A stretch of 19,333 nt of DNA from Desulfobacteraceae bacterium (GTDB taxonomy: Bacteria; Desulfobacterota; Desulfobacteria; Desulfobacterales; Desulfobacteraceae): assembly GCA_003354055.1 (NCBI GenBank), contig PIVQ01000066.1:1-19333 (forward strand), given 5' to 3'. Numbering within the stretch: the stretch's first letter is position 1; the number at the start of each line of letters is the position of its first letter. This document shows, piece after piece, positions 1 through 17,389 of the stretch. A program made the position numbers and the translations under genes. The notes beneath the pieces were generated by a model, which was not told the DNA's origin, did not search any database, and saw nothing but the letters and a program-made list of their open reading frames with translations.

Positions 1-250
1 CCTTTGATAGTAAGGTCTTCAATTTGTCGATGGCCTCCTTTTTCTGGTCCGGCGTCAACCTTGGGTCATTTTTCAATGACTCTATTTTTGCGAGGATAAA
101 GGCCTGTTCCGCTCCTTTTTCCTTGGGTGTGCGGCGGGTGATTTCGATGAATTCCTCCCTAACATCGCCGACCTTTGTTTCTGAATTACCACCGCGGGAT
201 CCAGGTGTTGGTCTGGGCTTAGGTTTATCGTTGCCTGTGTCTTTTGCCAA
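1..250 (-). CDS. Partial gene, tandem paralogue of the upstream gene's N-terminal module (C-terminus off the window)
   Basis: The minus-strand frame is open from 298 to the window edge and is in the same frame as the preceding gene, which stops at TGA 301-299. No ATG occurs in frame. The best start is TTG at 250-248, preceded by a GGGGAGGAG Shine-Dalgarno-like tract ending 9 nt upstream. The product opens with a Lys/Pro-rich linker and then a segment (about 150 down to 55) containing TPKEKGAEQAFI and KIESLKNDP. That segment matches TPKDKEAEDAFI and KINLLKSIP in the upstream protein, with 18 of 32 positions identical by eye. This shows a duplicated module. The rest of the protein lies outside the window, so its function is unknown. 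It could instead be the remnant of one longer repeat protein cut by the TGA. Confidence 0.55.
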   Translation of the reverse strand, partial: MAKDTGNDKPKPRPTPGSRGGNSETKVGDVREEFIEITRRTPKEKGAEQAFILAKIESLKNDPRLTPDQKKEAIDKLKTLLSK

Positions 251-298
251 ATCTTGGCCCTCCTCCCCTTTTTCTATTGGGTTAATGGTGTCCCTTGA

Positions 299-1249
299 TC
301 ATGAGGATACGGCATAACTATAATTCGGGTCCAGGAAAATAAGCTCAAATCCTTTTTTGTCGTTTCTTATGTAGCTGTTTGTTTTGGATAAAAGTTTCCA
401 GTCATCCCACTTGTATTTCTTATCCCGGGTAAGAATATAAGTGAGACTGGCGCCCAGGGTCTTGGTCTTTGAGTACTTGTCCTGGAATGTTTCCACGATA
501 GGCCCCCAGGAACCTACCCATCCCTTTTTTTGTATAGCTTCTGTGGAATCATAGGTGTAGTTGTAAACAACGTCAAATTTTTTGGTTTTATAGTTGGTTA
601 GCCAGACCCAGTTTTGCCAGTTTTTACCGTCATAGGTCTGGGTCGTGTTTTGAATAGTTATTACCTGATAGTTCTTGCCGTGAATATTTTTAGTCGTCAG
701 GTAATCGCTCAGTTTTGAGAAAGGAATATCTATCTGCCAGTGATCATCCCTTGCCCAGTCAAACACCTTAAAATGGGCTTCTTTCTGGGCATTATAAGAA
801 ATAAATGCCTCAACCCCTTTGGCCGTCCTGTTTGTTGTCGTCAGATAGAGCCATGTATTTACGTTTCCACCGGGCTTTGTGGGGGCGATATAATCAACCG
901 AAATCCTGGAACCGGTTGAAAAATCGGTTTTATAGGCAGTATTATAAAAAGGGCCGTATCCCACGCCCCCCGGAACAGGTGCGCCTCTGTCTGCCACGGC
1001 ACCTGCCGGCAAAAGTTTCTCGGTTTCCGCCAACACCATATCCTCATCCAGACCGGGAATGGATTTAAGCAAATTTATCTTGCTTGCAATAAAGGCGTCT
1101 TCGGCCTCTTTATCCTTCGGGGTCTGTGCGGTCAACTCCCTGAACTTATCCTGAGCGTCAACCACCTCAATGTTTTCTTCAAGTGATGGTGAAAAAGAGT
1201 ACATCGTCCCATCCCGCTCTACGTCAATATCGATATCTTTAAAAGTCAT
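299..1249 (-). CDS. Hypothetical protein, 316 aa: helical N-terminal module plus aromatic-rich beta domain
   Basis: The ATG at 1249 follows a GGGAG ribosome-binding site with 7-nt spacing. Residues 1-30 are acidic. Residues 36-70 form a charged, probably helical module that recurs in the next gene. After a Gly/Pro linker (80-100), about 200 residues are rich in Trp, Tyr, Asn and Thr with alternating polar/hydrophobic pattern, including KVFDWARDDHW, the WVGSWGPIVETFQ segment and a C-terminal GFELIFLDPNYSY. This suggests a beta-rich, possibly lectin-like or binding domain. No signal peptide, transmembrane segment or catalytic motif is visible. It sits near the 3' end of the minus-strand block, behind a 187-nt leader with two hairpins and a candidate promoter, so it may be expressed partly on its own. 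I do not recognise a named family. Confidence 0.85.
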   Translation of the reverse strand: MTFKDIDIDVERDGTMYSFSPSLEENIEVVDAQDKFRELTAQTPKDKEAEDAFIASKINLLKSIPGLDEDMVLAETEKLLPAGAVADRGAPVPGGVGYGPFYNTAYKTDFSTGSRISVDYIAPTKPGGNVNTWLYLTTTNRTAKGVEAFISYNAQKEAHFKVFDWARDDHWQIDIPFSKLSDYLTTKNIHGKNYQVITIQNTTQTYDGKNWQNWVWLTNYKTKKFDVVYNYTYDSTEAIQKKGWVGSWGPIVETFQDKYSKTKTLGASLTYILTRDKKYKWDDWKLLSKTNSYIRNDKKGFELIFLDPNYSYAVSS

Positions 1250-1276
1250 TCTAAAACTCCCTTCATAATTAGTTTA

Positions 1277-1305
1277 GTTGTAAATGGATGGATTCCCTTT
1301 GTCAA
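1277..1305 (-). promoter_or_regulatory. Candidate sigma-70 promoter for the 316-aa protein gene
   Basis: On the minus strand TTGACA (1305-1300) is separated by 17 nt from TACAAC (1282-1277). The -35 is perfect and the -10 matches TATAAT at 4 of 6 positions. It would give a leader of about 20 nt before the ATG at 1249, enough to carry the ribosome-binding site. Inferred from sequence only. Confidence 0.45.
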
Positions 1306-1340
1306 AACAGGTATCCTCCTTAATCCGGCAATGGGTATGA

Positions 1341-1384
1341 AGACAGGGCAAACCTTGCAGCCCGCAGGCGCAGTTGCCCTGTCT
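1341..1384 (-). other. 11-bp inverted repeat (hairpin) in the leader
   Basis: AGACAGGGCAA (1341-1351) pairs perfectly with TTGCCCTGTCT (1374-1384) around a 22-nt loop that can form a smaller stem of its own. There is no T-run on either side, so it is not an ordinary intrinsic terminator. In the block's mRNA it lies between the terminator-like stem at 1402-1426 and the next gene, where it could affect processing, stability or attenuation. Confidence 0.5.
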
Positions 1385-1401
1385 GTTCTGGTTTTAAATT
1401 G

Positions 1402-1426
1402 GGGCCGGGGCCGTCAGCCCCGGCCC
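1402..1426 (-). terminator. GC-rich hairpin just past the 208-aa protein gene
   Basis: GGGCCGGGGC (1402-1411) and GCCCCGGCCC (1417-1426) make a perfect 10-bp stem with a 5-nt loop, about 10 nt beyond the stop codon at 1437-1439 on the minus strand. The sequence after it in that direction is CAATTTAAAAC, a weak U-tract. It is probably a partial terminator or attenuator that lowers expression of the distal genes. Confidence 0.55.
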
Positions 1427-1436
1427 GGGTTCGGCA

Positions 1437-2063
1437 TTATTCAACAGGCATAAAGCCAAACTCCCAACGACCCTGGTTTCTGGTAACCGACACATCCACA
1501 GAGGTGGCACTGATGGGCATGACATACTTGGTCATGTCAGAAAAATTCTGGACAATATAGGTCTGTCCCACCAGGGGCGGTGACGCCACCATGAAATAGA
1601 AGTTGGGCATGTATTCAAAAGAGCAGGTCATGCCGGCATCCACCTTGGGCATGGTGACCACTGGCTTGTCATTGACAAACCAATTGCAGTCAAACTGGAT
1701 AAAGGGGTTGGTATTATTGACCACACCGGCCTGTTCCGGGGTCAGTTTTTCCTTGGCCAGGACTGAGGAGGCGTTCTCCAGTTTGGGAGACAGGCCGGTG
1801 GGGCTGATGGCCTGCTTGAGCTGTCCGGGCAGGATTATTTCGGTTTTTGAGATTACCGTATTACTGGGATTCAGCCCTACACTGGTCACGCAGGTTGAGA
1901 TTTTTGCCTGGTATACAAAGGATTCCGTGGCACCGGCAGAGGCATTGAGCACCTGCCAGGCATGCACCATATAATTGCGCTGGGGCGGGGTGGGTTTCAG
2001 AAATACCAGTACGCATTTACCGTCCATTGAGGTAACATCCATTTTTACATTAAAAGTTGTCAT
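1437..2063 (-). CDS. Hypothetical protein, 208 aa, paralogue of the 282-aa protein upstream
   Basis: The frame opens at 2102, but ATG 2063-2061 has GGAGG with 6-nt spacing and is the better start (MTTFNVKMDV). No signal peptide or membrane helix is seen. Shared landmarks with the preceding gene are HAWQVLNASAG (there KAWQFLNPSSG), an early FVYQAKIS/FNYVWQLAVS strand, VVNN before the middle, a CNWF/LEWFF aromatic patch, and a later FEYMPNFYFMV/GDRLLFHPV strand. The pair therefore arose by duplication, followed by strong divergence. The predicted character is beta-rich with many Val, Thr and Ser. The context (collar protein, giant protein) hints at a structural or binding role, but that is inference. 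The family is not recognised. Confidence 0.85.
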   Translation of the reverse strand: MTTFNVKMDVTSMDGKCVLVFLKPTPPQRNYMVHAWQVLNASAGATESFVYQAKISTCVTSVGLNPSNTVISKTEIILPGQLKQAISPTGLSPKLENASSVLAKEKLTPEQAGVVNNTNPFIQFDCNWFVNDKPVVTMPKVDAGMTCSFEYMPNFYFMVASPPLVGQTYIVQNFSDMTKYVMPISATSVDVSVTRNQGRWEFGFMPVE

Positions 2064-2148
2064 AACATTCCTCCATCGTTTTAGGTTGATATTCTGATAC
2101 AATTGCTGCCCCTCGAACCGGCGCCGTAATTGCCCGAAGGGCGGTCAG

Positions 2149-2162
2149 CCTGTGATCACAGG
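2149..2162. promoter_or_regulatory. Perfect 14-bp palindrome between the paralogous genes
   Basis: CCTGTGATCACAGG is fully self-complementary and lies in the 106-nt gap between the two paralogous genes, 8 nt beyond the upstream gene's stop. A smaller GCCC-GAA-GGGC stem is close by (about 2132-2142). It may be a protein-binding site or a short RNA stem. The inner TGTGA/TCACA halves resemble CRP/FNR half-sites but have no spacer, so this is not a standard CRP site. Confidence 0.35.
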
Positions 2163-2169
2163 AAACTGG

Positions 2170-3018
2170 TTATTTTCTTTCAGGCGGTATGAACCGGTAC
2201 ACCCGTCCCCCTGGGGCTGCAAGGACGGTTTCCCGTTTTTCTCCGGACCTCTCTGGGGGTAAACCGGTTTTCGGCTTCCCCTCTTCTTTTTTCGTGAACC
2301 AGATTTTCACCTGTTCTGCCTCAAGGGGCGGGTTATATGAACAGGTGTCTTTTAAGGCATCAGGCGTCCACCGCTTTTGGAGCCAGTCCTCTTTTTCCGG
2401 CATCACCGGATGGAAGAGCAGCCGGTCACCGGCCTGGATCACGGTGCATCCTCCCTTTGGCAGCCCGGTCGTCACCCCCATTTGCCCTGGCCCGAAAAAC
2501 CACTCCAACTCCAGGGCAGCAACGGATCCGGGATCCACATTGTTCACCACCTCAATGGTATTGGGTTCTTTGGCCTCTCCAGCCGGTTTTATGGTTAGGA
2601 TCTTAACGGTTTTCCCCTCCTGTGTAATATCCACGGCATCCACCAGCCACCGCTGGCCCGTGTTAATCTCTTGCCGGGCAGCGGGAATAAAATTTTCCGG
2701 GCTCCCCTGTCCTGATCCGGCAGCCTTATTTGCAACAGGAACGATCCGGGCGGATACAGCCAACTGCCAGACATAGTTAAAAATTTCCCCGGAGCCGCTG
2801 GACGGATTTAAAAACTGCCAGGCCTTGTAGAAGAATCCGGGGCCGGATGGCAATGGGTCTGTGTCAGAAGGGTCGGGATCAGATGGTTTAACATCGGGCG
2901 GCTTAACCTCAATACTCGAGTCCTTTGCAAACAGATTTTCAACAAAGACTAATGTGGCCATATGGGCTTCCTGGTCAGGCACTTGATTGATCAGGGTAAA
3001 GGGCAAAGATAAGGGCAT
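2170..3018 (-). CDS. Hypothetical protein, 282 aa, paralogue of the 208-aa protein
   Basis: Two ATGs are possible. The first (3024) directly abuts AAGGAG, while the second (3018) has ideal 6-nt spacing and is chosen. The N-terminal 35-40 residues are followed by an Asp/Pro/Ser-rich linker (PPDVKPSDPDPSDTDP), then the domain shared with the next gene, with landmarks KAWQFLNPSSG, VVNNVDPG and LEWFFGPG. The C-terminal tail of about 40 residues is rich in Lys, Glu, Pro and Arg and is absent from the paralogue. No signal peptide or membrane segment is visible. It lies 51 nt after the collar gene and is probably co-transcribed with it. Function unknown. A surface-exposed, linker-tethered domain would fit a fibre or adaptor role, but nothing in the sequence proves this. 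Confidence 0.86.
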   Translation of the reverse strand: MPLSLPFTLINQVPDQEAHMATLVFVENLFAKDSSIEVKPPDVKPSDPDPSDTDPLPSGPGFFYKAWQFLNPSSGSGEIFNYVWQLAVSARIVPVANKAAGSGQGSPENFIPAARQEINTGQRWLVDAVDITQEGKTVKILTIKPAGEAKEPNTIEVVNNVDPGSVAALELEWFFGPGQMGVTTGLPKGGCTVIQAGDRLLFHPVMPEKEDWLQKRWTPDALKDTCSYNPPLEAEQVKIWFTKKEEGKPKTGLPPERSGEKRETVLAAPGGRVYRFIPPERK

Positions 3019-3069
3019 GGTCATCTCCTTTTTCTTATGTGTTGGGGGTAAATTATCCTTGAATCCGAA

Positions 3070-3705
3070 TCAAAATCCGGGTAAAGGGCCATCCCGCAAC
3101 CGTACGGGGAATCCCCGGGTAAACTTGATGATAAAATGGACATAGACATTTTTTCCCCTGGTTTCCCGGGCAGCATATCGGTCTTTATCACCCGGTTTTC
3201 CGTCCAGGTCCGCAGAGGGACCGGTGGGGATGGAGTCATATGCGGAAAATACAGGGTCTCCCTTTTCGGAAATCCCCCCGGCCACTGACCGGTCATAATA
3301 ATGCCAGTGCTTTAAAAGGGCATCTTCCTGAACAGACCCCACACAATTACCCTGCCAGCCGTCAGGGCCTGAGGAGCGCCTGGTGTCCTGGTCCGGGTCC
3401 CTCAATTTTTTGTCCGGTCCCAGAGCCCCCAGGTTCACACCGCGGGGCATCCGGCCCCTGTAATCCGGGAGGCAGAAGAACCCGCCCTTTTTCCTGCCGT
3501 ATATGAACCCGATGGCCAGAAAAAGCTCACGATACTTTGCCACAGGCAGTTCCCTGCCGTCACAAAACAGCCATCCGGAGCCTTTCAGACGGACTTCCCA
3601 GACCGCCAGCCCGGGTTTTGGAAACCCGGCGGCAGAATCTGGATCATCCCTGACCGGTCCGGCATAAGGCATAACCGCCCCAACAGGTGTATGGGTCAAC
3701 CTCAT
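3070..3705 (-). CDS. Phage tail-collar-fold protein, 211 aa
   Basis: The protein has the tail-collar (microcystin-dependent protein/short tail fibre) layout. GSGWLFCDGRELPVAKYREL at about 42-61 is the usual 'GWL.CDG..L....Y..L' entry, then IGFIYG, then FFCLPDYRGRMPRGVN at about 76-91, matching 'F.LPDLRGR.P.G', and KNVYVHFIIKF close to the end, the usual closing strand. In phages this fold sits at the tip or collar of tail fibres and contacts receptors or sugars. The ATG at 3705 has GGAGGT at 5-nt spacing and overlaps the stop of the giant gene as ATGA, so translation is probably coupled. The last 15 or so residues extend past the normal end of the fold. The family call is firm; the role here (fibre of a tail-like particle versus secreted adhesin) is open. 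Confidence 0.88.
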   Translation of the reverse strand: MRLTHTPVGAVMPYAGPVRDDPDSAAGFPKPGLAVWEVRLKGSGWLFCDGRELPVAKYRELFLAIGFIYGRKKGGFFCLPDYRGRMPRGVNLGALGPDKKLRDPDQDTRRSSGPDGWQGNCVGSVQEDALLKHWHYYDRSVAGGISEKGDPVFSAYDSIPTGPSADLDGKPGDKDRYAARETRGKNVYVHFIIKFTRGFPVRLRDGPLPGF

Positions 3706-6700
3706 GGTTTACCTCCGGCCGGCAACCGGATGTTGTCCATGAATGACGGCAACTGGTCTCCGTCCTGAAGACGGATCATGGGCGTCGCCACCCGGACTTC
3801 CCATGCAGCTGTTTCCGGTTCGGGAACAGGGTCCTGAGTTTTCAATTGGTTCACCAGGTCCACATCCCTGTCCCACACCGGTGTCAGATCAGCACTGCCG
3901 AACCAGAAACAGCCCCGTGAGGACAGAAAATACAAGAGCGCCCGGTCATACCCGGGCCGGACCGGCACCACAAGCCGAGCCGAGCCGGCCCGTAAAAAGG
4001 CGGTGAAGTCATCCATGGCAGATGCTGATGGTTCCCGGACATAGAGAAAGGGACGGTCTAAGGCATCTGGTCCGAAAAAAGTCGGGTAATAGGTAAAAGA
4101 CATATCCGGCCATGCCAGGGCCCCTGAAAAAAAAGGCACCAGTCTGAAGTTCATTGCATCTTCCTTCCATCCGGTTGTCTCTTTTACGACTCCAGGCCTG
4201 TTAAGCCAGGTATTCACCAGACATTCTATGGCTTTCTTTTTAAGGGTCTCCCGCTCCAGGGCACCCAGCCGCTCCAGGGGAGAAGAACCGATTAACAAAT
4301 TTTCCAGGGTGTTTTTCCTGTTTTTTAGCTCCCGTTCATACCCGGTCATGACCCTGCGCCAGATCTGGTGCTGCCATGAGCCAAAGACCTTTCCTGCATC
4401 AGAACAGCTTGTCTGGACGATAATGTTTACACAATACCGGTAACCGGCAGGGGCCAGTACTGCCACAAAAAGGCGGGTCCGGGCTGATCCGGCAAACCCC
4501 TGTTTTAACGTACTGCCTTCCTTTTCCGGCAAACTGCTCTCTCCTGTGTCCCCCAGGGACGGCCAGGTGAATTCCAGGTCAAAGGTCCCGCTTACCGGTG
4601 CGGATTTTAAGTCCACGGTTTTCTGGGAGGGGCCGATCATAATGGCCAGTCCCCCTTTCCCCCCCTGTGGCCGGGCCGGCTCCTCCAAAGTCACGGCAAA
4701 GCTGATCCGGGCAGACTTAGTGGAATAGTCCGGCGGGATCTCAATGGAGTCGGCGTTGTGGGGGGGATCCTGGGACAGGGCAGCACTGAACAGCCTGATT
4801 TGAGGCGGGGGGAAAGGCCCCTTTTTTACACCGTACATTTCTAAGAATCCGCGATAGTTGTCCCGGGTGATGTCGCAGGGTTTCAACGTCCTCTCTCCGG
4901 TTCCGGCTTTAACCACAGGGGGCGGCGGCGGGGTCAGGTCCACACCGTGCAATGCGCCCTCCCGTTCAATCAATCCGTCAGCCGGCGCCGACAGGACAAA
5001 TTCCAGAAAGAGCCGCTGGCCCATGCTCTGAAGGCTGATGGCAAAAACCTGGTCAATCCATCGGTACATCCCGATCAGGGGCCGGTCCCTGTTTTCATTG
5101 GTTTGACGGCATTGCTGCCGGGATATCAGTTCTGCCTCAAGGCTGCGGTACCGGAGGGCTTTCACCTGTTTTGACACCATTTTGGCTGCCTTGTTCAGCA
5201 TGTCCATGGCCCTGTGGCGGACAGAAGAACGGGTGTCCTCTGCCGGGCTCAATGTATCTGACCATCCCCCGGTGATTGTCTGGGTCAGCCCGTCGCTTCC
5301 GTATTTATTGTTTAACTTGGCAAAATTGCGGGTCAGCTCCTGACCGGGATTGGACAATATTCGGTTGTCCAGATCCGAGGTTCCGGACTGGCCATGGTAT
5401 TGGCTGGTGTCCAGGTCCAGCCGGGTTTCTTCCAATTGGGCATTTTTGTGTTCAAACCGCTGGGTCTGCTCTTGCTGCCGCTGTTCGCCGGGCATGAGAT
5501 TCTCTATGTGGGCCAGTTCTCCAGGCTCATACCGGTTCAGGCGGTGCCGGAGCACCTGGAGTTCGGCTGCACCAAGGGTCCTGGCATATGCGGTGGTCCC
5601 CGGTGTTGCATCCATCTGATCAGAACTGCTATTGCAGGGAAAAACCGGGAGAACGCAGGCAGCTGACAGCAGTTCAGAAAGGCGCGCCTGCGTTAAAACA
5701 GAGGGGTGCCGGACCTGTTCGGCAAGATGGCAGATAATTAAAACCCGGATAAGGCGGTCTGGGAGCTGCCCATACCTGGCGCAGGATACTGCCAGGGCCA
5801 CAACGGAGTTTTGAACCCTGTTTTTTGAATCTTTGTATGTCTTGTCTGTGACAAAGGCATCCAATGATACCCCCAGAATGTCTGTGAGGGCCCCGACAAA
5901 ATCATTTGGACGCTCCTGGTGCCTGAAGAGCGCCCTGAATCGTCTTCCGCACAGATTGCCCATGGGAAGCGGCAGGTCCCCGACCTTGGACACAAACTGC
6001 CCCGGGTAGGATTTGGAATCCGGGTCCATGAACGCCATGGCTTCGGCAATCCGGTCCCTGACGGCGGGTTTATCTGACAATGCCTTTTGAAACGCCGTAG
6101 TATTGCAGATATCAATAAACCGGTTTGCCAGCTGCTCACGGGTGGGCAGCACCAGCCCCACGGGTGCCGCAAGGCAGGATAATATCTCTGCAGGGGTCCG
6201 GGCACCCACAAGCACCTCACCGGGGCATTTCCTGTCCGGACAGGGCCCACGGCCGCTATGCCATGTTTCAAGTTCCACAATGTCAATTTCCGCATCCACC
6301 CACCTGCAGTCCAGCTTTAAATTGATCACATCTCCGGGTTCGATGAGGTAGGTCAGGGCGCATTGTGCACAGATACCGTCGGCAACAAGGGTGTCCTGCC
6401 ACTCGCGTTTGTCCTCGGAAAGCCCTGGGGCCGCCACCTGTTTGTCATGGATGAAAAATCGGACCCTTACACCCTTGCAGTTCGTGTCTGCCCCGTCCAC
6501 GGTCCAGGTCGCTTTAATGGCCTTGCCCGGGCCAAATGCCAGGCTCCCGGTTTCAGGAGCCGCTGTCCTGTCATCCGGACACAGCCGCCACCGGTGCAAT
6601 GTGGACGGCTGGTGACTTAAGACTTCCATGTCCCCGATGCCGCAGGTCAGCATCAATGCACCAAAGGCTGTTCCCAGTCCGGACAGGGCAAGGGAGCCCC

Positions 6701-6953
6701 AGGCGGCCCGCTTACCGGAAAAAAGGATAAAATCCCTGGACGGCCGGTTCCTGTCCAGCCGGCAACGGAATGTCTGGCTGCCCAGGCGTACCACACAGTC
6801 CGCCACCGGGTATCTGGTCTTCTTACCTGCGCACTGCCAGTTCACCCTGAGGTCTTTCACCTGTTTTTCCCCGCCATTCAGGACGGGAATACCCACTGAT
6901 TTCAGGGGGCCGGTGCTGCCGGCGGTCTCTGTATGCTTTTCTTTTTCGGACAT
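3702..6953 (-). CDS. Giant protein of unknown function, 1083 aa, head of the minus-strand block
   Basis: The frame is open to 7088, but ATG 6953-6951 (MSEKEKHTETAG) has GGGAG at 6-nt spacing and is preferred. Visible parts: a hydrophobic stretch at about 83-106 (one possible membrane segment or buried helix); a Cys-rich beta-like region at 115-245; a helical middle; YEPGELAHIENLMPGEQ at 475-491 followed by a highly charged Gln/Glu/Arg stretch; RWIDQVFAISLQSMGQRLF at about 631-649; a five-proline run at 675-679; and a long C-terminal half of alternating beta and helical segments. From memory, the EPGE-[IL]-AHIEN and RW[VI]D.V....NYG.R pairs occur together in large uncharacterised proteins near phage-tail-like or contractile-injection loci. 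This was not checked. No catalytic motif is seen. It is translationally coupled to the collar gene. Confidence 0.85.
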   Translation of the reverse strand: MSEKEKHTETAGSTGPLKSVGIPVLNGGEKQVKDLRVNWQCAGKKTRYPVADCVVRLGSQTFRCRLDRNRPSRDFILFSGKRAAWGSLALSGLGTAFGALMLTCGIGDMEVLSHQPSTLHRWRLCPDDRTAAPETGSLAFGPGKAIKATWTVDGADTNCKGVRVRFFIHDKQVAAPGLSEDKREWQDTLVADGICAQCALTYLIEPGDVINLKLDCRWVDAEIDIVELETWHSGRGPCPDRKCPGEVLVGARTPAEILSCLAAPVGLVLPTREQLANRFIDICNTTAFQKALSDKPAVRDRIAEAMAFMDPDSKSYPGQFVSKVGDLPLPMGNLCGRRFRALFRHQERPNDFVGALTDILGVSLDAFVTDKTYKDSKNRVQNSVVALAVSCARYGQLPDRLIRVLIICHLAEQVRHPSVLTQARLSELLSAACVLPVFPCNSSSDQMDATPGTTAYARTLGAAELQVLRHRLNRYEPGELAHIENLMPGEQRQQEQTQRFEHKNAQLEETRLDLDTSQYHGQSGTSDLDNRILSNPGQELTRNFAKLNNKYGSDGLTQTITGGWSDTLSPAEDTRSSVRHRAMDMLNKAAKMVSKQVKALRYRSLEAELISRQQCRQTNENRDRPLIGMYRWIDQVFAISLQSMGQRLFLEFVLSAPADGLIEREGALHGVDLTPPPPPVVKAGTGERTLKPCDITRDNYRGFLEMYGVKKGPFPPPQIRLFSAALSQDPPHNADSIEIPPDYSTKSARISFAVTLEEPARPQGGKGGLAIMIGPSQKTVDLKSAPVSGTFDLEFTWPSLGDTGESSLPEKEGSTLKQGFAGSARTRLFVAVLAPAGYRYCVNIIVQTSCSDAGKVFGSWQHQIWRRVMTGYERELKNRKNTLENLLIGSSPLERLGALERETLKKKAIECLVNTWLNRPGVVKETTGWKEDAMNFRLVPFFSGALAWPDMSFTYYPTFFGPDALDRPFLYVREPSASAMDDFTAFLRAGSARLVVPVRPGYDRALLYFLSSRGCFWFGSADLTPVWDRDVDLVNQLKTQDPVPEPETAAWEVRVATPMIRLQDGDQLPSFMDNIRLPAGGKP

Positions 6954-7174
6954 TTTCCTCTCCCTTGGTCGAGGACAAGAACTCACGTGGATAAGAACTC
7001 CATTGGATACTGACTTCTTTAGGGGAGTGAATTTGGGATCAAGTAACCTTTGAATGTCAATCCTAATGGATTTAATGAATCGCGGCACAGCCCTGCTATT
7101 GGAATGTCAGGGTCATTTACGATGCTGTACCCGGTTCGGTAACCAGGCGAATAAGTACCCGGACAAATAGAAAA

Positions 7175-7190
7175 GGCAAATAAAATGCCA
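7175..7190 (-). promoter_or_regulatory. Candidate sigma-54 (-24/-12) promoter for the giant-protein block
   Basis: On the minus strand TGGCA (7190-7186), six nt, then TTGC (7179-7176) matches the RpoN consensus TGGCAC-N5-TTGC with GG and GC 12 bp apart. All nine of these fixed bases agree; the flanking C of TGGCAC is T here. Transcription would start near 7164, leaving a leader of about 210 nt before the ATG at 6953. A sigma-54 activator gene lies about 730 bp away, and a GC-rich dyad sits about 140 bp upstream of the -24 element, where activator sites are usually found. Confidence 0.6.
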
Positions 7191-7320
7191 CCCTTCCAGT
7201 GGATTGCACCCGCATTAAAGATTGCAGCAAAATTATGCCAGCTCTGTCCGGAAAACGGCACAATGTCTTTACTTTTCTCTAAATTATCGCAAAGAGGCAG
7301 AACAAACACTAAAAACACCG

Positions 7321-7341
7321 GGCCGGAACATCATGCCGGCC
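7321..7341. promoter_or_regulatory. Dyad GGCCGG-N9-CCGGCC, possible activator/operator site
   Basis: This perfect 6+6 bp inverted repeat lies 12 nt before the ribosome-binding site of the helix-turn-helix gene and about 140 bp upstream of the sigma-54 promoter on the other strand. A related copy follows the gene (7866-7909). It could be the enhancer for the sigma-54 activator, an operator for the helix-turn-helix protein, or a leader hairpin. Confidence 0.4.
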
Positions 7342-7365
7342 GTTTAATTCAAAGGAGGTACAGCC

Positions 7366-7815
7366 ATGCCTAAACGCATCACGCTCAAGAACAGGGAACA
7401 ACTGGAAGAAGAGATACTGTACCGTCTCTGGCAGAGACAGGATCCACGCTTTCTGCTGAGAATGCATGTTGTGCTGCTGGCCGCAAGCGGTATCAAGGTC
7501 AGCAGGCTTTCAAAAATCTACCGGCTCAATGCCACAACCATCCAGCGATGGCTTCACAGGGCTGACCAATACGGAGTTAAAGGATTGAAGGACCGGACCG
7601 GCAGCGGCCGCAGGCCGTCCTTAACCCGGGAAGAGGAACACCAGGTGGCCTTAGATCTGAAAAATGCCCCAAGGCAGGTGGGATTCAGACAACACAGCTG
7701 GTCCGGCAGACTTTTGTCAAGGCACCTTAAAACCTGCTACCAGGTCGATCTCAAGGAACGGCAGTGCCAGAACCTGATAAGACGCCTGGCTGGGACAGAT
7801 ACTGATATCGGATAA
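7366..7815 (+). CDS. Stand-alone IS630-type helix-turn-helix protein, 149 aa (no DDE domain)
   Basis: The start is firm: AAAGGAGGT lies 6 nt before ATG 7366. Residues about 25-70 form a helix-turn-helix (LLAASGIKVSRLSKIYRLNATTIQRWLHR), followed by GLKDRTGSGRRPSLTREEE, the linker typical of IS630/Tc1-type transposases and related regulators. A second winged-helix-like half (about 85-140) contains GFRQHSWSGRLLSRHL. A TAA follows at 7813 and no DDE catalytic domain is found downstream in any frame I can follow. It is therefore either the first ORF of a truncated IS630 element or a domesticated DNA-binding protein. The strong ribosome-binding site and its place between a sigma-54 activator and a sigma-54-type promoter favour a regulator. 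It is divergent from the giant-protein block. Confidence 0.85.
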   Translation: MPKRITLKNREQLEEEILYRLWQRQDPRFLLRMHVVLLAASGIKVSRLSKIYRLNATTIQRWLHRADQYGVKGLKDRTGSGRRPSLTREEEHQVALDLKNAPRQVGFRQHSWSGRLLSRHLKTCYQVDLKERQCQNLIRRLAGTDTDIG

Positions 7816-7865
7816 TTTTTTTTTGAAGACTGCAGGCATTGTTGCGGATTTCAGGATAATGGGCA

Positions 7866-7923
7866 CGGCCGGAAAATCATTTCCTGAGAAAAACGGTTGA
7901 AACCGGCCGGCACCCTCTTTTTT
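7866..7923 (+). terminator. Stem with T-run after the helix-turn-helix gene
   Basis: CGGCCGG (7866-7872) pairs with CCGGCCG (7903-7909) across a 30-nt loop, and TTTTTT follows at 7918-7923. The T-run suits termination of the plus-strand helix-turn-helix transcript, where it meets the convergent activator gene, whose stop is at 7923. The long loop weakens the call. The left arm is also part of a near-repeat of the dyad at 7321. Confidence 0.4.
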
Positions 7924-8975
7924 CAGGACGAATGCGTCCGGCTTTTTTCTGAATCAGAGAAAAGTTTTCGTTCAACTACTTTGCGGTGTACGCCGAGCAG
8001 CCGCCCGGCAGCTGTCTTGTTCCCCCCGCATTTATCCAGAGCCCGGCGGATCATGGTCTCCTGCAGGGTGTTGAGGCTCTTTTCAAGATTCAGATTGAAA
8101 ATATCCTCCACAATTCTGTCCAGCCTGTCACTTTCAGCATTAGAATGGTCAGGGATAAACCTGCGGACGGTTTCTTCGGTCACCGGATTATCATCACTCA
8201 AAATCGCAATACGGTCGATAGTATTTCTCAACTGGCGGATATTACCGGGCCAGTCTGTCCCGGCAAGGGCATCCAGTGCCTTGGATGTAAAACGCAGTTC
8301 GCGATCCTGGTTCCTGGCCATGTAGAAAACCAGCTCGGGGATATCTGTACTGCGTGACGCCAGCCCCGGTACCTGAAGGATAAGGACCCCGATTCGATAA
8401 TAAAGGTCTTCGCGAAATCGGTCGGTTTTTACCATTTCCTTTAAATCCCTGTTGGTCGCCGCCACAATCCTGCCTTTAAAAACCTGTTGTTTTGCCGAAC
8501 CAATGGGGGAAAATCTGCGGGTCTCAAATACCCGCAGCAGCCGGGTCTGCTGTGTCAGGGGCAGTTCTCCGATTTCATCCAGAAACAAGGTGCCCTCCTG
8601 AACCAATCCCAGGTATCCGTCCGTGGTTTGGACCGCACCGGTAAAGGCGCCGCGTTCATGGCCGAAAAGTTCCGATTCGATCAGGGTTTCGGGAATCGCA
8701 CCGCAGTTGACCGGGATAAATGCTGCATCTTTTCTGGGCCCTAGTGCATGAATCCGGACTGCCACCATTTCCTTGCCAGACCCTGTGGGGCCGGTGATCA
8801 GCACCGGACGGTCAGACCTTGCCACCCGCCTGACATCCTTGGCCAGCTGCAGCATTGCAGGGCATTTTCCCCAGGGCATATCTCCGGTATTGCCCGCAGA
8901 TGAAGAAATCCTTGCAGCAAGTACTGCATTTTCCCTTGATGCTCCCATAAAAGCCGCCGTATGCCTCTGGAACAA
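7923..8975 (-). CDS. Sigma-54-dependent transcriptional activator, AAA+ and Fis-type HTH, 350 aa, no sensor domain
   Basis: Such proteins hydrolyse ATP to open sigma-54 promoters. Seen here: Walker A GPTGSGKE (62-69), the sigma-54-contacting GAFTGA loop (109-114), Walker B LFLDEIGE (130-137), arginine-finger region FREDLYYRIGV (187-197), sensor II WPGNIRQLRN (242-251), and a C-terminal Fis-like helix-turn-helix (about 313-337, CGGNKTAAGRLLGVHRKVVERKL). The 40 residues before the AAA+ core are too few for a receiver, PAS or GAF domain, so its input is unclear: it may be controlled by its amount or by a partner. The start is doubtful. TTG 8975 follows an in-frame TAA and a T8 run, an internal ATG lies at 8948, and neither has a good ribosome-binding site. 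It is convergent with the helix-turn-helix gene and is the natural candidate activator of the promoter at 7175-7190. Confidence 0.9.
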   Translation of the reverse strand: MFQRHTAAFMGASRENAVLAARISSSAGNTGDMPWGKCPAMLQLAKDVRRVARSDRPVLITGPTGSGKEMVAVRIHALGPRKDAAFIPVNCGAIPETLIESELFGHERGAFTGAVQTTDGYLGLVQEGTLFLDEIGELPLTQQTRLLRVFETRRFSPIGSAKQQVFKGRIVAATNRDLKEMVKTDRFREDLYYRIGVLILQVPGLASRSTDIPELVFYMARNQDRELRFTSKALDALAGTDWPGNIRQLRNTIDRIAILSDDNPVTEETVRRFIPDHSNAESDRLDRIVEDIFNLNLEKSLNTLQETMIRRALDKCGGNKTAAGRLLGVHRKVVERKLFSDSEKSRTHSS

Positions 8976-9204
8976 AAAAAATTAAGTAAGTCGGGGATGA
9001 AACCTGATCTGGCGTCCCCAAAAGGCAGATGCATCACCAGATCCCCGCGTATCGACACCGGGCAACAAGAAGATAAGAAAAGAGACGCCCGGTTCCTTTC
9101 TTGCTACCAGGCAGCCCCGGCCCTGTCAAGGTAAAACTATACAGGGACAGTTTGGCGTCCATGCGGTCTATTGAATGTTATGGGGGGATACTCAGGAGGC
9201 CTGT

Positions 9205-9240
9205 ATGACCTTAATCCGGTTAATAGACTGTTCTCGCTGA
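9205..9240 (+). CDS. Putative 11-residue leader ORF before the MFS gene
   Basis: A perfect AGGAGG (9194-9199) lies 5 nt before ATG 9205. The frame reads MTLIRLIDCSRC-like residues and ends in TGA (9238-9240), which overlaps ATG 9240-9242 of the transporter frame as TGATG. The arrangement looks like a translationally coupled leader peptide. It could also be the old start of the transporter, separated from its body by a frameshift. Confidence 0.4.
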   Translation: MTLIRLIDCSR

Positions 9241-10640
9241 TGTCTACCGAAGGTCCGGATGGGATGTCCGGCCCGGGCAATCGTTTTTTAAATCTGTACC
9301 GCTGTAAAAATATCTATTCTGTACCTATTATCTTTGTTTTACCGGTGCTATTCATATTATCAGGCCATAATGTTCCAATCGTTTATCAGTTCTCAAACAG
9401 GAATAGCATCTTGATAACACAAGTCAAAAGAGCCCCTTTCTTTTACGGATATACAATTATCATTGCCGGTTTTTTTATACAGGCAGTGGTTTGGGGTGTC
9501 AGCAACAGTTTTGGTGTTTTTTTTGATCCGTTAATCAAGGAATTCGGCTGGTCAAGAGCTACAATTTCAGGCGCTGCCTCGCTGGGCTTTCTTGTTCATG
9601 GATCTACCAGTATTCTTTTGGGGAACCTCAATGACAGATTCGGTCCCCGTTTTATCATGTCCGCCTGCGGCTTGTTCATAGGTCTTGGCTTCTGGCTCAT
9701 GGCCACCCTGAATTCCGTCTGGCAACTGTATCTGTTTTACGGCCTTATAGCCTGTGTAGGCCTCGGCGGCATAGATGTGATTCCCCTGTCAACCGTGTCC
9801 AGGTGGTTTCAAAAAAAACGCGGCATGATGAGCGGTATCATAAAAGTCGGAACAGGGGTGGGGATGTTCGCCATGCCGTTTTTCATCAACTGGCTTATAA
9901 AAACCTATGGGTGGCGGCATTCTTTTGTGGTACTGGCATTCCTCATTATCATTTCAGTCTTGTTCCTGGCCCAGTTTTTAGTGCGTGATCCCTCCCAGAA
10001 AGGCCAGTTTATTGACAATGGAACCACTCATGTATCAAAAATGGAGAATGGCGCAGAAGACGGGCTGACAACTAAGGAGGCCTTTAGAACCAGACAACTA
10101 TGGATGATCTGTGCGGTCTATTTCGTGATTTTGTTCTGCACTTACACAATACTGATGCATATCGTCCAGCATGCCATTGATCTTGGCATATCCCGGGGTG
10201 TCGCTGCCAGCATTTTATCCGCTGTCGGCGGCGTGAGTATTATCGGCAGATTTTTGATGGGCGGGGCCGGCGACAAAATTGGTGAAAGAAACGCATTATT
10301 GATCTGCCTTCTGTGTCTTTTACTGTCTCTTTGCTGGCTGCAATCCGTATCAAGTTTGTGGATGTTTTACCTGTTTGCCGCGATCTACGGATTTGCTCAC
10401 GGCGGATTTTTCGCCCTGGTATCCCCTCTGATCGCTAAATTTTTCGGGACAAAATCCCACGGACTTCTCTTTGGGATCGTTATATTCAGCAGTACAATCG
10501 GGGGGGCTATCGGCCCGTTTCTGGCAGGTTATATTTTTGATGTGACCGCAAGCTATAAAATTATTTTCTGGATTCTGGCGGCTTTATGTACCGCAGCCAT
10601 TGTGCTGACAACTGCACTCAAGCCACCCGTCAAAAGTTAA
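9240..10640 (+). CDS. MFS transporter, OFA/monocarboxylate-type, about 466 aa
   Basis: The core begins at FFYGYTIIIAGFFIQAVVWG and shows about 12 hydrophobic helices, a cytoplasmic GNLNDRFGPR (the MFS signature loop after helix 2), a Pro/Gly-rich helix 4-5, a hydrophilic central loop, and a second-half GGAGDKIGERN loop. This matches the oxalate/formate-antiporter and monocarboxylate groups, usually about 400-430 residues. The start is uncertain. TTG 9171 has no ribosome-binding site; ATG 9240 overlaps the stop of a leader ORF (chosen); TTG 9411, preceded by CAGGA, would give 409 residues, closest to family length. The roughly 57 extra N-terminal residues contain another hydrophobic stretch. 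The substrate is probably a small organic acid, but this cannot be read from sequence. It is convergent with the OmpA gene. Confidence 0.87.
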   Translation: MSTEGPDGMSGPGNRFLNLYRCKNIYSVPIIFVLPVLFILSGHNVPIVYQFSNRNSILITQVKRAPFFYGYTIIIAGFFIQAVVWGVSNSFGVFFDPLIKEFGWSRATISGAASLGFLVHGSTSILLGNLNDRFGPRFIMSACGLFIGLGFWLMATLNSVWQLYLFYGLIACVGLGGIDVIPLSTVSRWFQKKRGMMSGIIKVGTGVGMFAMPFFINWLIKTYGWRHSFVVLAFLIIISVLFLAQFLVRDPSQKGQFIDNGTTHVSKMENGAEDGLTTKEAFRTRQLWMICAVYFVILFCTYTILMHIVQHAIDLGISRGVAASILSAVGGVSIIGRFLMGGAGDKIGERNALLICLLCLLLSLCWLQSVSSLWMFYLFAAIYGFAHGGFFALVSPLIAKFFGTKSHGLLFGIVIFSSTIGGAIGPFLAGYIFDVTASYKIIFWILAALCTAAIVLTTALKPPVKS

Positions 10641-10668
10641 CAGGGGCGGTTTCACCGCCGGTTCCTGT
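10640..10668. terminator. Hairpin in the gap between convergent genes
   Basis: ACAGG-GGCGGT (10640-10650) pairs with ACCGCC and CCTGT (10654-10668), with a TTC loop and a small bulge, filling the 27-nt gap between the MFS and OmpA stop codons. It probably serves both strands, although neither side has a strong T-run. Confidence 0.45.
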
Positions 10669-11291
10669 CAGTACAACTCCACCACCACCCGTCTGTTTCG
10701 GGGTTCCTCGGTATTGTCCAGGGTGGGGACCCGGAGGCCGTGTTCCCCGTAGGCCCGAATTTCAAGTTCCTTGAATCGGATTTGCGGGCTGGTCAGCAGA
10801 TTGGCGATCTTGTTGCTGCGTCCGGCTGACAGGGTCATGTTGGCGGCTGCCGATCCCACGGTATCTGTGTACCCCAGTATCCGCACGCCAAGTGGGGGAT
10901 CTGATTCCAGCCGGGAGATAATTTCCCGGAGAACCTTGTCAGACCCCGGGACAAGATCAAGGGTTCTGAATTCAAAGAAAACCGTAAATCTGTTTTTAAT
11001 CGGTGGCAGGGGAGGTTGTGGGGCTGGTAAGGGTTTTTCCAACTCATTGCTGAACAGGTTTTCGTATTCTAGGTTGAGCTGATACGGATTAGCCTTTTGA
11101 ACCGTTATTCCTCCCGGGCTGACAAAGGCATAGGGTTTATCAAGGACAATCTCGCCTTTATCCGTTGTTATGGACACTGCGCCTGTTTCCTGGTTGTCCT
11201 GGGGCAGTAAAATGACCTTTGCACCTTTTGGTTTCGGGGCACAGGAAACGAGCAGCACCAGGCAAAGAAATAGAAAAAAATATCGAATCAT
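10668..11291 (-). CDS. OmpA-family outer-membrane lipoprotein, 207 aa
   Basis: The N-terminus has a hydrophobic signal ending in the lipobox LVSC (14-17), so Cys17 is lipidated. No Asp follows it (Ala18), consistent with outer-membrane sorting. Residues 18-95 hold a short beta-like region and a Pro-rich linker (LPAPQPPLPP). Residues about 100-207 are an OmpA C-terminal peptidoglycan-binding domain: FTVFFEFRTLDLVPGSD, then RILGYTDTVGSAAANMTLSAGRSNKIA and EIRAYGEHG...NRRVVVEL, with the Asp and Arg of the usual 'GYTD...R' diaminopimelate-binding set. AGGTG lies 5 nt before ATG 11291. It follows the FecR-domain gene by 18 nt and is surely co-transcribed with it. The likely role is an envelope anchor or part of a signalling assembly with that partner. 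Confidence 0.9.
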   Translation of the reverse strand: MIRYFFLFLCLVLLVSCAPKPKGAKVILLPQDNQETGAVSITTDKGEIVLDKPYAFVSPGGITVQKANPYQLNLEYENLFSNELEKPLPAPQPPLPPIKNRFTVFFEFRTLDLVPGSDKVLREIISRLESDPPLGVRILGYTDTVGSAAANMTLSAGRSNKIANLLTSPQIRFKELEIRAYGEHGLRVPTLDNTEEPRNRRVVVELY

Positions 11292-11309
11292 GGTTTCACC
11301 TGCTTTGAA

Positions 11310-11750
11310 CTATTGAAGATCAACTATAAACCGGGTTCCCCTTATGCCCACAGTGGCTCTGGGGGTGTTCAGCCGAACCGATTTCGGGGACAGTTTCCCT
11401 ATTTTTCCGGAATTATATACCAGGGATCCTTTTTCCATGAAGAAATTAAAAAAATAGGCATCATCCCTGGGTTCAAAAATATAGGTTTCGATTTTAAATT
11501 CAGACTCCGGCCCCAGGGTGATAACGGTTCCGTCTTTGAACAGCAGTCCGGCAAATCCGGTTTTTCCCGTTGTCACGACATCCTGATTCATCAGGGGCAC
11601 GGACGGACTTGCATGATATACAGTCCCATCTCTTATGATTTCCACCTTTCCGGAAACGGCTTTAATGATTCCGACAGTATCATATTGGGCAGCACCGGGG
11701 CTGGACCATAATATTGGGAGAATTAAAGCGAGAAAGAGAGCGTGTTTCAC
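11310..11750 (-). CDS. FecR-domain periplasmic protein, 146 aa
   Basis: A 21-residue signal peptide (ends near SSPGAAQ) precedes a compact FecR-type domain: VGIIKAVSGKVEIIRDG, the NQDVVTTGKTGFAGLLFKDGTVITLGPES core and the closing VRLNTPRATVGIRGTRFIVD, the classic 'TP.A.VGIRGT.F' motif. There is no N-terminal membrane anchor or anti-sigma part, so it is the stand-alone periplasmic form rather than an iron-uptake FecR. GTG 11750 is the start, with AAGGA 8 nt before it. It leads a two-gene operon with the OmpA lipoprotein. Stand-alone FecR/OmpA pairs are often near adenylate-cyclase/CHASE2 sensors, but none is in this window, so the role is unknown beyond envelope location. Confidence 0.9.
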   Translation of the reverse strand: MKHALFLALILPILWSSPGAAQYDTVGIIKAVSGKVEIIRDGTVYHASPSVPLMNQDVVTTGKTGFAGLLFKDGTVITLGPESEFKIETYIFEPRDDAYFFNFFMEKGSLVYNSGKIGKLSPKSVRLNTPRATVGIRGTRFIVDLQ

Positions 11751-11789
11751 TGAACCATCCTTTATCTTACCATCCTTTATATGCCGAAG

Positions 11790-11818
11790 AGTATAGAGAA
11801 CCCCTGCCGGGGTGTCAA
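11790..11818 (-). promoter_or_regulatory. Near-consensus sigma-70 promoter of the FecR/OmpA operon
   Basis: On the minus strand TTGACA (11818-11813), a 17-nt spacer and TATACT (11795-11790) differ from consensus by one base. The start point would be near 11783, giving a leader of about 33 nt before GTG 11750 that contains the AAGGA ribosome-binding site. Strong housekeeping expression is expected. Confidence 0.75.
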
Positions 11819-11953
11819 GGATCGTCCCGGCTGCTGCACCTTATTAATAATTTGGGTTTTTTTGCAGCTTCCCCGGAACTTGGCACTGGGCTCGTATCAT
11901 TGAAATATTGAATTTTGCCCTTGTTGCATTATTTTTGTGATTTATAAGCCGTC

Positions 11954-12115
11954 ATGAAAACAAATGTTGCTCTCAAATGTTCAGACTGCGGGTCACTAAA
12001 CACGACTGTTTTCAAACTTTATCAAACGGTACACAATGGAACCAGGAAATTGCATCTGTGTAAAACCCATAACACGGCCATGGAAAATATCTTGTCGATG
12101 CAAAAATCGGTTTAA
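11954..12115 (+). pseudogene. 53-residue zinc-ribbon ORF, possible transposase N-terminal remnant
   Basis: ATG 11954 to TAA 12115 encodes a small protein with CSDCG near residue 9, a basic beta-hairpin-like middle (YQTVHNGTRKLHL) and CKTH near residue 36, that is C-x2-C...C-x2-H, a zinc-ribbon layout. The pattern, including the following NTAMENILSM, recalls the N-terminal zinc ribbon of IS1-like transposases, whose catalytic domain is absent here. No ribosome-binding site is visible. It is either a decayed insertion-sequence fragment or a real small DNA/RNA-binding protein. The rest of the 445-nt gap (11751-12195) holds only the promoter described above. Confidence 0.45.
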
Positions 12116-12195
12116 GATCAGAGTCATGTAACAGACACCTGGGTTCATAGTTCATAGCTGAGTGTCAGAATGATTGGAGCCCAGTGCCCCGGCCA

Positions 12196-14253
12196 TTAAA
12201 TCTGGAATTTTTCTGTCATGGTTCCCAACCGAACCATCACATCATTGAGAACCTTTGCCTTTTGCTTAAGATCTGTAGAAAATGCAGAGATCTGCTGGGA
12301 TGCCTCCAGAACCCCTGAAATTTCCTGGGCCACCTGGCTGGACATGGCTGAACTCTGGGACACATTCTCATTGACCTCCTGGATCCCCTGGGAGACCTGG
12401 CTGATATTCTCGGCAATCTCCACGGTGGTAGCGGACTGAATGTCTATGGCTGCGGCAGCCTCGTTCACAAAGGTATTAATCTCATGGATAATGGCTGAAA
12501 TATCCTGAATCTCGGTAACTGCCCCTTTGATCTGGGTTTGAATTTCCTTGATATTCCCGGCAATATCCTCTGTGGCTCCGGCAGTCTGACCGGCCAGGTC
12601 TTTGATCTCATTTGCCACAACCGCAAACCCCTTGCCAGCCTCACCAGCTCTGGCAGCCTCAATGGTGGCATTCAATGCCAGAAGATTGGTCTGGGAAGAA
12701 ATGTCATTGATGGTATCGGTGACCTTATCAATTTCTTCTGCGGCTTTACCCAGAGCCTTGACCCGCTCAGATGTTTGCTTGGCCTGTTCAACTGCCTTTT
12801 GGGTAATGTCCCGAGTGTGGGCGGAATTTTTGGCCACCTCCTCAATGCTGGCACGCATCTGGCCGGTCCCGGTGGAAACCGTTTCCACATTGGTACTGGC
12901 CTCTTCCATGGCTGCAGCCACAGAATCCATATTCACACTCATCTCCTCGGCGGCCGAGGCCACTGTGTTGACCTTTTCCACACTGATATCAGCCCCCTGG
13001 CTCATCTCATCAGAAATCTGGTTCAGATCTCCCGAGGCAGTACTCAGGGTTTCCACACCAGAATTGAGTTCCCGGATCATCTGGCCCAATTCAGCCGTCA
13101 TATCATTCATGGCATCCACTGTATCGTGGATGGCATCCTTGGCATCATAGGTAAAACTATATCTGAAATTCCCATGGGCCACCTCCTTTGCCATGGTGGC
13201 CATACCGTTCATATTATTCATGAGCTGCCGGTTCATCACCCCGATGATTAAAGCGCCGATAACAAGGGCAATGGCTCCGCTCACACCCACACTGCCCAGA
13301 ATTTGTTTGTTGATGCCGGCCATGAGTTCTGCCTCGGATACGGCAACCGTGAGATACAGATCCCAGGATTTAAAGTAATTAACATACCCGTAAAAAAGGT
13401 TCCCCCCGTGTTCATAGGAAATAAAGCCTGTCTTGGTTGTCAGAAGGGTTTGGCCGCCGGAAAATTCCTTTACATTTATCTTGGTATAGGCTGTGTCCGG
13501 GTGGGTGAGAATTCTGCCGTCAGCATCATTAATAAAGGCATACCCATTGCCGCTGACGGTTATTTTTTTCACCAGATTCTCCAGATCCGGGGTCAGGATT
13601 TTTTTCTGGATGCCAAAGGCACCGACTATTTTTTCATCAATCGCATCTTTAAAGGGAGAAAGATGCAGCAGGGTTTTATCCCTTCCCCTGCCGCTTAACA
13701 CCTGAACGGAATCTCCGGCCATCACTGATTTATAGTGATCTGCAGATGAAGGATAATACCCGCCCACCAATCGTGATTCATCCTTGCCCTTGGCACTGGT
13801 GGATACCTTGATCAGCTTGTCATCAAATAATTGATAAAACATGATCTCAGAATCGCTGAACTGACCCACCTTATCCACAATTTTATATTCGCCGGTGACA
13901 AATTCAAGACCAAAAATCAGTTTGGGTATGGTCAGCTTGACCTTTTCCCGGGTCAGGATATCAAAGGACTCCATATCTGTGGTTCTGGCCTGGACCACCA
14001 TGGCATTTCCATTGCTTTTGCTCTCTGTTTCAAGCATTCCAAGATCAGAACCTAATTTTGCTTTTTGGAGGGTATACTGAACCTCAATGGTATTCAGCAG
14101 GACATCGGAAACGTTTTGAATACTTGCCTTGCCCTTGGCAAGAAAACTGCGTTTTGTCTGATAAAAATTAACAGATGCAATGATCAGAATGGTGAGAAGG
14201 ATAATTCCCAGGGAAGAAATATAGAGTTTTTTTCCAAACCCGATTTTAGCCAT
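12196..14253 (-). CDS. Methyl-accepting chemotaxis protein, Cache-HAMP-signalling, 685 aa
   Basis: ATG 14253 has AAGGAGGT just upstream and is preferred to the open frame at 14274. Layout: helix 1 at about 11-28; a large periplasmic Cache sensor (about 30-315) with two parts, the second containing [17 protein letters not shown] and [16 protein letters not shown]; helix 2 at about 317-340; HAMP at about 341-393; then a long heptad coiled coil. The conserved hairpin tip [20 protein letters not shown] and its continuation lies at about 515-553, which couples to CheA/CheW. Possible methylation Glu/Gln pairs (AAEEMS, AMEEAS) occur in the coil. There is no C-terminal CheR-tether pentapeptide. Cache sensors usually bind small organic acids, amino acids or similar ligands; the ligand here is unknown. 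Single gene, no chemotaxis neighbours. Confidence 0.95.
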
Positions 14254-14303
14254 GTGACCTCCTTGAATTAGCAATTAGGCCAATACTGTGTCATTTTTTT
14301 CCC

Positions 14304-14347
14304 AGAGGCACAAGCTATTTCCCAGCTATAAAACAGCTTGTGCCTCT
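14304..14347. repeat. Perfect 13-bp inverted repeat upstream of the chemoreceptor gene
   Basis: AGAGGCACAAGCT (14304-14316) and AGCTTGTGCCTCT (14335-14347) are exact inverted copies around an 18-nt loop that contains a third AGCT. Neither side is followed by a T-run in the right direction, so it is a poor terminator. It lies 50-95 bp upstream of the chemoreceptor start and next to the hisF-like fragment, so it could be an operator, a leader stem or the end pair of a lost insertion. Confidence 0.55.
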
Positions 14348-14364
14348 AAAGTTTCATATCCTTG

Positions 14365-15312: not shown

Positions 15313-15360
15313 ATGCGTGTATATACGACATTTTTAATTTAATTTAAAGTGTGGGTGTTT

Positions 15361-15382: not shown

Positions 15383-15401
15383 AGTTGTAAAGGAAAATAG
15401 T

Positions 15402-17352: not shown

Positions 17353-17369
17353 TCGGTTTTCCTTTGATG

Positions 17370-17388: not shown

Positions 17389-17389
17389 A

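Follow-up and report, generated by a model that had tools for sequence, protein, structure and literature searches.

A family of very large proteins from bacteria and archaea, encoded beside polymorphic-toxin-type or phage collar-type genes

The question raised by contig PIVQ01000066.1 of a Desulfobacteraceae bacterium (GCA_003354055.1) is what a protein of 1083 residues, hereafter the giant, might be doing in the company of a phage-type collar protein. The stretch analyzed, referred to below as the window, comprises positions 1-19,333 of the forward strand of this contig. Six genes on its minus strand run from 6953 to the left end of the window, beginning with the giant (3702..6953, minus strand; the open reading frame extends over 3702-7088, with an ATG served by a good ribosome-binding site at 6953), which is followed by a 211-residue protein (3070..3705, minus strand) with a collar domain like that of T4 gp12 (PF07484, 5.7e-13; 49.1 bits against a curated cut-off of 24). 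An original prediction, made from the sequence alone, had seen here a minus-strand gene set combining these two proteins, and had proposed a tail-like or appendage module controlled by sigma-54. The gene set is real; what that prediction overlooked is the strongest signal of all, namely the linkage of the giant family to genes of the polymorphic-toxin type.

Giants and their toxin-type partners

The giant itself gives no match in Pfam, PHROG or NCBIfam at E<=1, and none of the 41 sequences retrieved with it in a protein search, its own included, has a precomputed Pfam assignment. Its close relatives can be aligned with it from about residue 293 onwards, the family as a whole from about 455 to 1071. 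A species-level scan (one genome per species) yielded 330 stretches matching conserved peptides of the family, 299 of which encode a giant relative; the best 80 of these 299 were kept, such pattern scans not being exhaustive, and the profile searches of neighboring genes took in 88 other loci (designated below by L numbers) together with the window. Giants are found in Bacteroidota, Pseudomonadota, Actinomycetota, Acidobacteriota, Thermodesulfobacteriota, Myxococcota, Bacillota and Cyanobacteriota, and in the archaeon Methanoperedens. Literature searches on the family, on its parts, on pre-toxins and on lysis-released toxins found no description of it, and the giants are apparently an undescribed family of very large proteins of bacteria and archaea.

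A tree of 62 giants is split by a single branch (support 100/99) into 17 collar-type rows and 45 others. In the 64 loci that are not of the collar type, the gene following the giant often codes for a toxin- or effector-like protein. Of these loci, 57 contributed 58 usable proteins from that position, and a Pfam search of these partners at E<=1e-4 detected 21 families: PAD (protein-arginine deiminase), the commonest, in 10 partners, patatin in 4, WHH nuclease, PhoD, EndoU, pre-toxin TG and colicin-DNase in 2 each, and 14 further families once each, for example muramidase, PLDc, Tox-MPTase4, SMI1_KNR4, SUKH_6 and amine oxidase. At least 20 of the 58 are without any family match. As a partial control we used 41 genes located upstream in these loci, and no toxin family occurs among the matches listed for these (25 of 78).

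Exchange of toxin domains among the partners is seen directly. Two Bizionia loci (L049 and L051) encode giants that are 98.7% identical and partners that are 98.2% identical over residues 1-550, with the final 239 and 258 residues, respectively, being dissimilar; the partners of the Tenacibaculum loci L035, L041, L042 and L062 display the same pattern of exchange at 44-61% identity. By our own cut-offs, a shared N-terminus combined with a different C-terminus is found in 9 of 120 similar partner pairs. Ten partners, including that of L006 and of the PAD type judging from L006, are alike over their full length across phyla, and because of this the PAD-type pair does not resemble an exchanged toxin. 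In L087, a separate gene for a 250-residue protein of the ADP-ribosyltransferase type shares its first 52 residues (65%) with an upstream toxin-like gene, itself with a weak Tox-MPTase4 match below the cut-off, and then differs from it. Immunity genes of the SUKH type were identified by Pfam in both loci where this was tested (two in L035, and in L049), and sequence clustering points to SUKH-type clusters in L041, L046, L062, L065, L067 and L074 as well.

Exchanged C-termini and adjacent immunity genes are thus both present in the wider giant family which, by its partners, belongs with the polymorphic toxin systems. As portrayed in a published survey (PMC3482391), these systems share with the giant family a conserved N-terminus joined to a swapped C-terminal domain, SUKH immunity proteins, the orphan cassette and the pre-toxin TG, EndoU, WHH and Tox-MPTase4 domains; the first 300,000 of the 357,715 characters of that survey make no mention of collar, holin, deiminase or patatin. 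The giant family differs from them in that its constant partner is a separate protein of about 1000 residues without a family model.

Certain loci additionally contain genes of the phage-lysis and fiber types. In L035 from Tenacibaculum, a divergent S24/CI-like repressor is followed by the giant, an EndoU-ended toxin, two SUKH genes, a CHAP endolysin, a holin and fibers, the tandem tail-fiber-like genes sharing an N-terminal anchor. Profiles built from the Tenacibaculum genes and run on the 88 loci and the window gave counts of 6 for the holin, 6 for the CHAP endolysin, 9 for the fiber anchor and 10 for the S24 repressor (one of them weak). All four types occur together in six Flavobacteriaceae loci (L035, L041, L042, L046, L062 and L065), of which all except L042 also possess the SUKH-type clusters. 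The only collar domains on this side of the tree are those of L042 and L065, which are not next to the giant and reside on a protein bearing the fiber anchor. One viral contig, L086, encodes Prophage_tail (PF06605), Sipho_tail (PF05709) and amidase genes beside its giant. The association of giants with tail-like genes, which the original prediction had put forward, is borne out by these tail genes and by the fiber, holin and endolysin genes adjoining some other giants; a family that never occurs with tail-like genes is not what was found.

A precedent for toxins released by lysis is provided by the Tc toxins and their type 10 secretion system, as set out in PMC10847048, and the Tenacibaculum and Kordia loci are similar in combining toxin genes with a holin/endolysin cassette in one locus. 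Unlike the Tc toxins, giant loci feature collar and fiber proteins instead, and most of them are without lysis genes; TcA, TcB and TcC/RHS are absent from the window giant (Pfam at E<=1) and from the 21 families of the 58 partners. A constant component combined with tail fibers and without a linked tail is unlike the classes known to us.

On balance, we lean towards the view that the giant is a common carrier, either the body or the translocator of a protein-delivery complex. This view builds on the common descent of the giants, the gene order, the domain families of the neighbors, the exchange of toxins and the presence of lysis and fiber genes in some loci. The giant would associate with the neighboring protein and take this partner into target cells, and the collar and fiber proteins might bind and choose the target surface in the manner of T4 gp12. 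In loci with a holin and an endolysin gene, lysis would free the complex, and another route would operate elsewhere, including in the window. A structural model of the giant was based on 86 sequences (mean predicted local distance difference test score, pLDDT, of 69). Its confident parts are at about 270-440, which is helical, 455-490, 570-600, 620-800, 830-960 and 980-1070, and a poorly predicted stretch is flanked by two long strands, each of some 30 residues (456-486 and 626-655). In that stretch the mean hydropathy alternates around a YGP-type turn (located in 68 of 86 rows), with other parts of the giant alternating more strongly, and none of the fold matches listed for the model covers the region of these two strands. 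The alternating stretch recalls the membrane hairpin of beta-pore-forming toxins, and one could conceive of it as a membrane-inserting pore element.

The collar clade and the window locus

The 17 collar-type rows of the tree are 15 loci, the window and P0002 (so labeled by its near identity to L004), with a further such locus, L024, not being in the tree. According to gene clustering combined with the profile searches of the 88 loci and the window, 15 loci have the collar gene immediately behind the giant (L001-L005, L008, L009, L012, L024, L032, L033, L050, L055, L059 and L069), and in L016 it comes one gene later. The pairing of giant and collar protein, which the original prediction had drawn from the window, is conserved in all 15 loci that fall with the window in the tree (directly adjacent in 14), and in L024 as well. 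In the window an ATGA overlap joins the stop of the giant to the start of the collar gene at 3702-3705, and the same overlap recurs at 6 of 15 other junctions (L004, L012, L032, L050, L059 and L069). A profile of the window collar protein and 11 relatives matches T4 gp12 (1ocy, 2.1e-13). The window protein thus resembles the short tail fibers of phages in its domain and in this profile similarity, and differs from them in being a stand-alone short protein coupled to a giant outside a recognizable phage. The window giant is the longest branch of the tree, and its place inside the collar side is unsure for this reason.

A second recurrent component is c3, a family of small, predicted beta-sandwich proteins of about 206 residues, one or two members of which are encoded upstream of the giant in 14 of 16 collar-type loci (weakly in L032); L033 is without a c3 gene, and the L059 stretch begins inside the giant. 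The paralogous pair noticed in the window by the original prediction does exist, and its members, 2170..3024 (minus strand, 282-284 residues, with an insert) and 1437..2102 (minus strand, 208-221 residues, 208 from the ATG at 2063), are distant representatives of c3 (hhalign probability 93.3%, E 2.8e-7). They lie downstream of the collar gene, as against upstream of the giant in the related loci. The former has one other homolog in the database, and the latter is predicted to form a beta-sandwich. A G+C-rich inverted repeat at about 1395-1440, between 1437-2102 and 299-1249, reads in the sequence as a possible terminator inside the operon.

The last two genes of the operon had been described as repeat-bearing; they exist, but what they actually form is a second paralogous pair. 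The gene 299..1249 (minus strand) encodes a 316-residue member of a widespread unnamed family, with 566 proteins at E<=1e-3 (its own included) from Streptomyces, Kitasatospora, Solirubrobacteraceae and other hosts; the best relatives are about 50% identical, the closest 52%. This protein has no Pfam match and no PDB relative at E<=1, and its family is absent from the 88 other giant loci searched. The gene 2..250 (minus strand), an N-terminal piece cut by the contig end, matches positions 23-84 of the family profile at 1.6e-8, placing two members in tandem in the window.

As to the other genes of collar-type loci, 9 of the 16 encode a GT2-type protein further along, and the clade also has proteins of the Stv, trypsin-like and peptidoglycan-binding kinds. 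Given that such proteins recur, the cargo of the collar clade need not be a classical toxin. The Massilia locus L024 encodes a TOMM bacteriocin precursor (TIGR03795, 1.4e-40) together with a SagD-type maturase at 5267-7868, beside c3, giant and collar on their upstream side. In L055 a 285-residue protein (8353-9210) between c3 and the giant has, by eye, the look of an endonuclease/exonuclease/phosphatase and no Pfam or NCBIfam match. A few kb downstream of collar-type giants, inspection by eye picks out a patatin-like protein (L032, 15446-16231) and a lysozyme-like one of the GH25 type (L024, 16494-17156). A CPxxC-type motif close to the C-terminus marks further proteins encoded downstream of such giants, in L032 (13931-14377), L050 (12994-13593) and L002 (11697-12470); those of L032 and L050 have no NCBIfam match.

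As to regulation, the activator proposed by the original prediction is real (7923..8975, minus strand; PF00158 1.1e-62, PF02954 5.8e-7). It combines AAA+ and Fis-type helix-turn-helix domains, and no N-terminal sensor domain was recognized. A possible sigma-54 (-24/-12) site, an exact TGGC-N7-TTGC, is present at 7176..7190 (minus strand), 223 bases upstream of the giant's ATG. It is a weak match: the window holds 4 exact occurrences where 1.08 would be expected (a number attained in 6 of 200 shuffles), and once a single mismatch is allowed the occurrences are no more frequent than by chance (23, with 23.8 expected). On account of these counts the sigma-54 promoter upstream of the giant is only suggestive, and so is the predicted control by sigma-54. 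Activators matching that of the window at E<=1e-10 occur in 5 of the 88 other loci, three of them of the collar type (L003, L016 and L055), so that a recurrence of the activator near giants is likewise suggestive only. Between activator and giant lies an IS630-like piece (7366-7815, plus strand), probably the fragment of a transposase, which matches the helix-turn-helix half at 63.9 bits, below the cut-off of 100.

A reading close to the original prediction would have the collar clade change its role, with giant, collar and c3 proteins forming a toxin-free surface appendage or adhesin under sigma-54. The replacement of the toxin gene by the collar gene in every collar-side tree locus, the frequency of c3 and the activator and site in the window would all suit it; yet no signal peptide, secretion or assembly genes were noticed by eye, and enzyme-like genes, such as those of the GT2, Stv and trypsin-like types, recur in these loci. 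Hence, we regard an appendage as unlikely.

Profile searches covered the genes within 2-8975 of the window and, in its right half, 10668-11291 and 11310-11750, the remaining open reading frame translations being judged by eye; no capsid, terminase, integrase, sheath or tube gene was recognized, in agreement with what had been noted for four of these (capsid, integrase, sheath and tube). The right end (18227-19330) encodes a protein which we take to be phosphatidylserine-decarboxylase-like. A weakly related one (27% across about 205 residues) is encoded in L016 at about 1940-2545, near the Desulfobacter giant operon, a position deduced from contig coordinates.

Contractile systems and mobile elements

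Giant loci are reminiscent of extracellular contractile injection systems (eCISs), tailocins and type VI secretion systems in their targeting proteins derived from phage tails, their toxin-type neighbors and a modest co-occurrence with tube genes. They are unlike them in linkage: across 50 giant-bearing genomes, neither sheath (PF04984) nor tube (PF06841) was detected within 300 kb of the giant on the same contig, many of these contigs being short. The suggestion that the giant is part of an eCIS or tail did not hold up in these genomes, and the lack of linked sheath or tube genes indicates that the family is not simply a component of either.

The giant could still be an eCIS accessory, loaded on or attached in trans to an eCIS encoded elsewhere in the genome. 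Tube matches over the cut-off were found in 28 of the 50 giant-bearing genomes as opposed to 0 of 14 control genomes, and sheath matches in 28 of the 50 at E<=1e-3, 19 of them over the cut-off. Among 294 sampled Bacteroidia (the centre genome left out), a tube was found in 7 of the 19 with a giant and in 31 of the 275 without (odds ratio 4.6, Fisher p 0.0055); both genes are perhaps commoner in large environmental genomes, these counts not being controlled for genome size. Conversely, giants occur without a tube match in 22 of the 50 genomes and in 12 of the 19 Bacteroidia, and tube matches are equally common in collar-type genomes (9 of 16) and in the rest (19 of 34). A tube or sheath shares the contig of the giant only in G035 (about 328 kb apart, i.e. 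about 0.33 Mb) and G019 (about 700 kb, or 0.70 Mb) of the 50 genomes; in the Bacteroidia sample, where only the tube was tested, this is the case in G195 (56 kb) and G071 (2.2 Mb), and other pairs are on separate contigs. Taken together, the tube counts and contig distances amount to a modest co-occurrence without close linkage and without dependence, and an accessory role of this kind appears improbable.

Another conceivable role is as cargo of prophages or plasmids, in which a toxin/immunity cassette would serve the mobile element and the giant would not be a vehicle but a partner of the toxin in the cytoplasm, or its chaperone. The viral contigs are pertinent here: beside the tail and amidase genes of L086, L087 has genes for a DUF2586 protein, an M15 peptidase and a patatin near its giant, and L088 looks alike by eye. 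DUF2586 proteins are presumably tail-sheath-like, and if so the giants of L087 and L088 lie within a few kb of a contractile-tail gene. Twelve plasmid records carry giants, the haloarchaeon Natronorubrum being among the plasmid hosts, and the window has its IS630-like fragment. However, as against 299 genome stretches, only these three among 2.9 million IMG/VR contigs yielded a giant relative, and a set of 50,697 phage records contained no match at E<=0.01, with the caveat that the pattern scans were not exhaustive. Furthermore, three Tenacibaculum islands are flanked on both sides by ordinary chromosomal genes and showed by eye no capsid, sheath, tube or terminase in 36-40 kb. We accordingly consider it doubtful that the giants merely serve mobile elements.

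Proposed toxin delivery by the giant

If the giant is a carrier, as we favor, the complex specified by the window might consist of the giant and the collar protein, with the c3-like and 316-residue-family proteins as accessory components or cargo. Since the contig ends at base 1 the operon is incomplete, and the cargo may be encoded beyond the left end of the window. No toxin or immunity gene was recognized by Pfam in 2-8975, and in this the window itself so far differs from the polymorphic toxin systems.

A fuller picture, which we put forward as possible and quite tentatively, is that of a so far unrecognized toxin delivery system of bacteria and archaea that has no contractile tail of its own. 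The giant would be its pore-forming or translocating vehicle, collar and fiber proteins derived from tails would aim it, polymorphic toxins or other enzymes would be its cargo, and a phage-derived repressor, holin and endolysin would govern its release in some hosts. The window would then represent a deep branch, with a collar gene at the position otherwise occupied by the toxin gene.

The adjacency of the toxin clade to swappable toxins, and sometimes to lysis and fiber genes, suggests that the giant family may belong to an unrecognized form of protein delivery between cells. The swapping of partners makes this testable, in that one giant should deliver different toxins. If the giant is indeed the vehicle, it would add a new class to the trafficking modes of polymorphic toxins and, with no contractile tail linked to it, would connect toxin delivery with fibers and lysis genes of phage origin.

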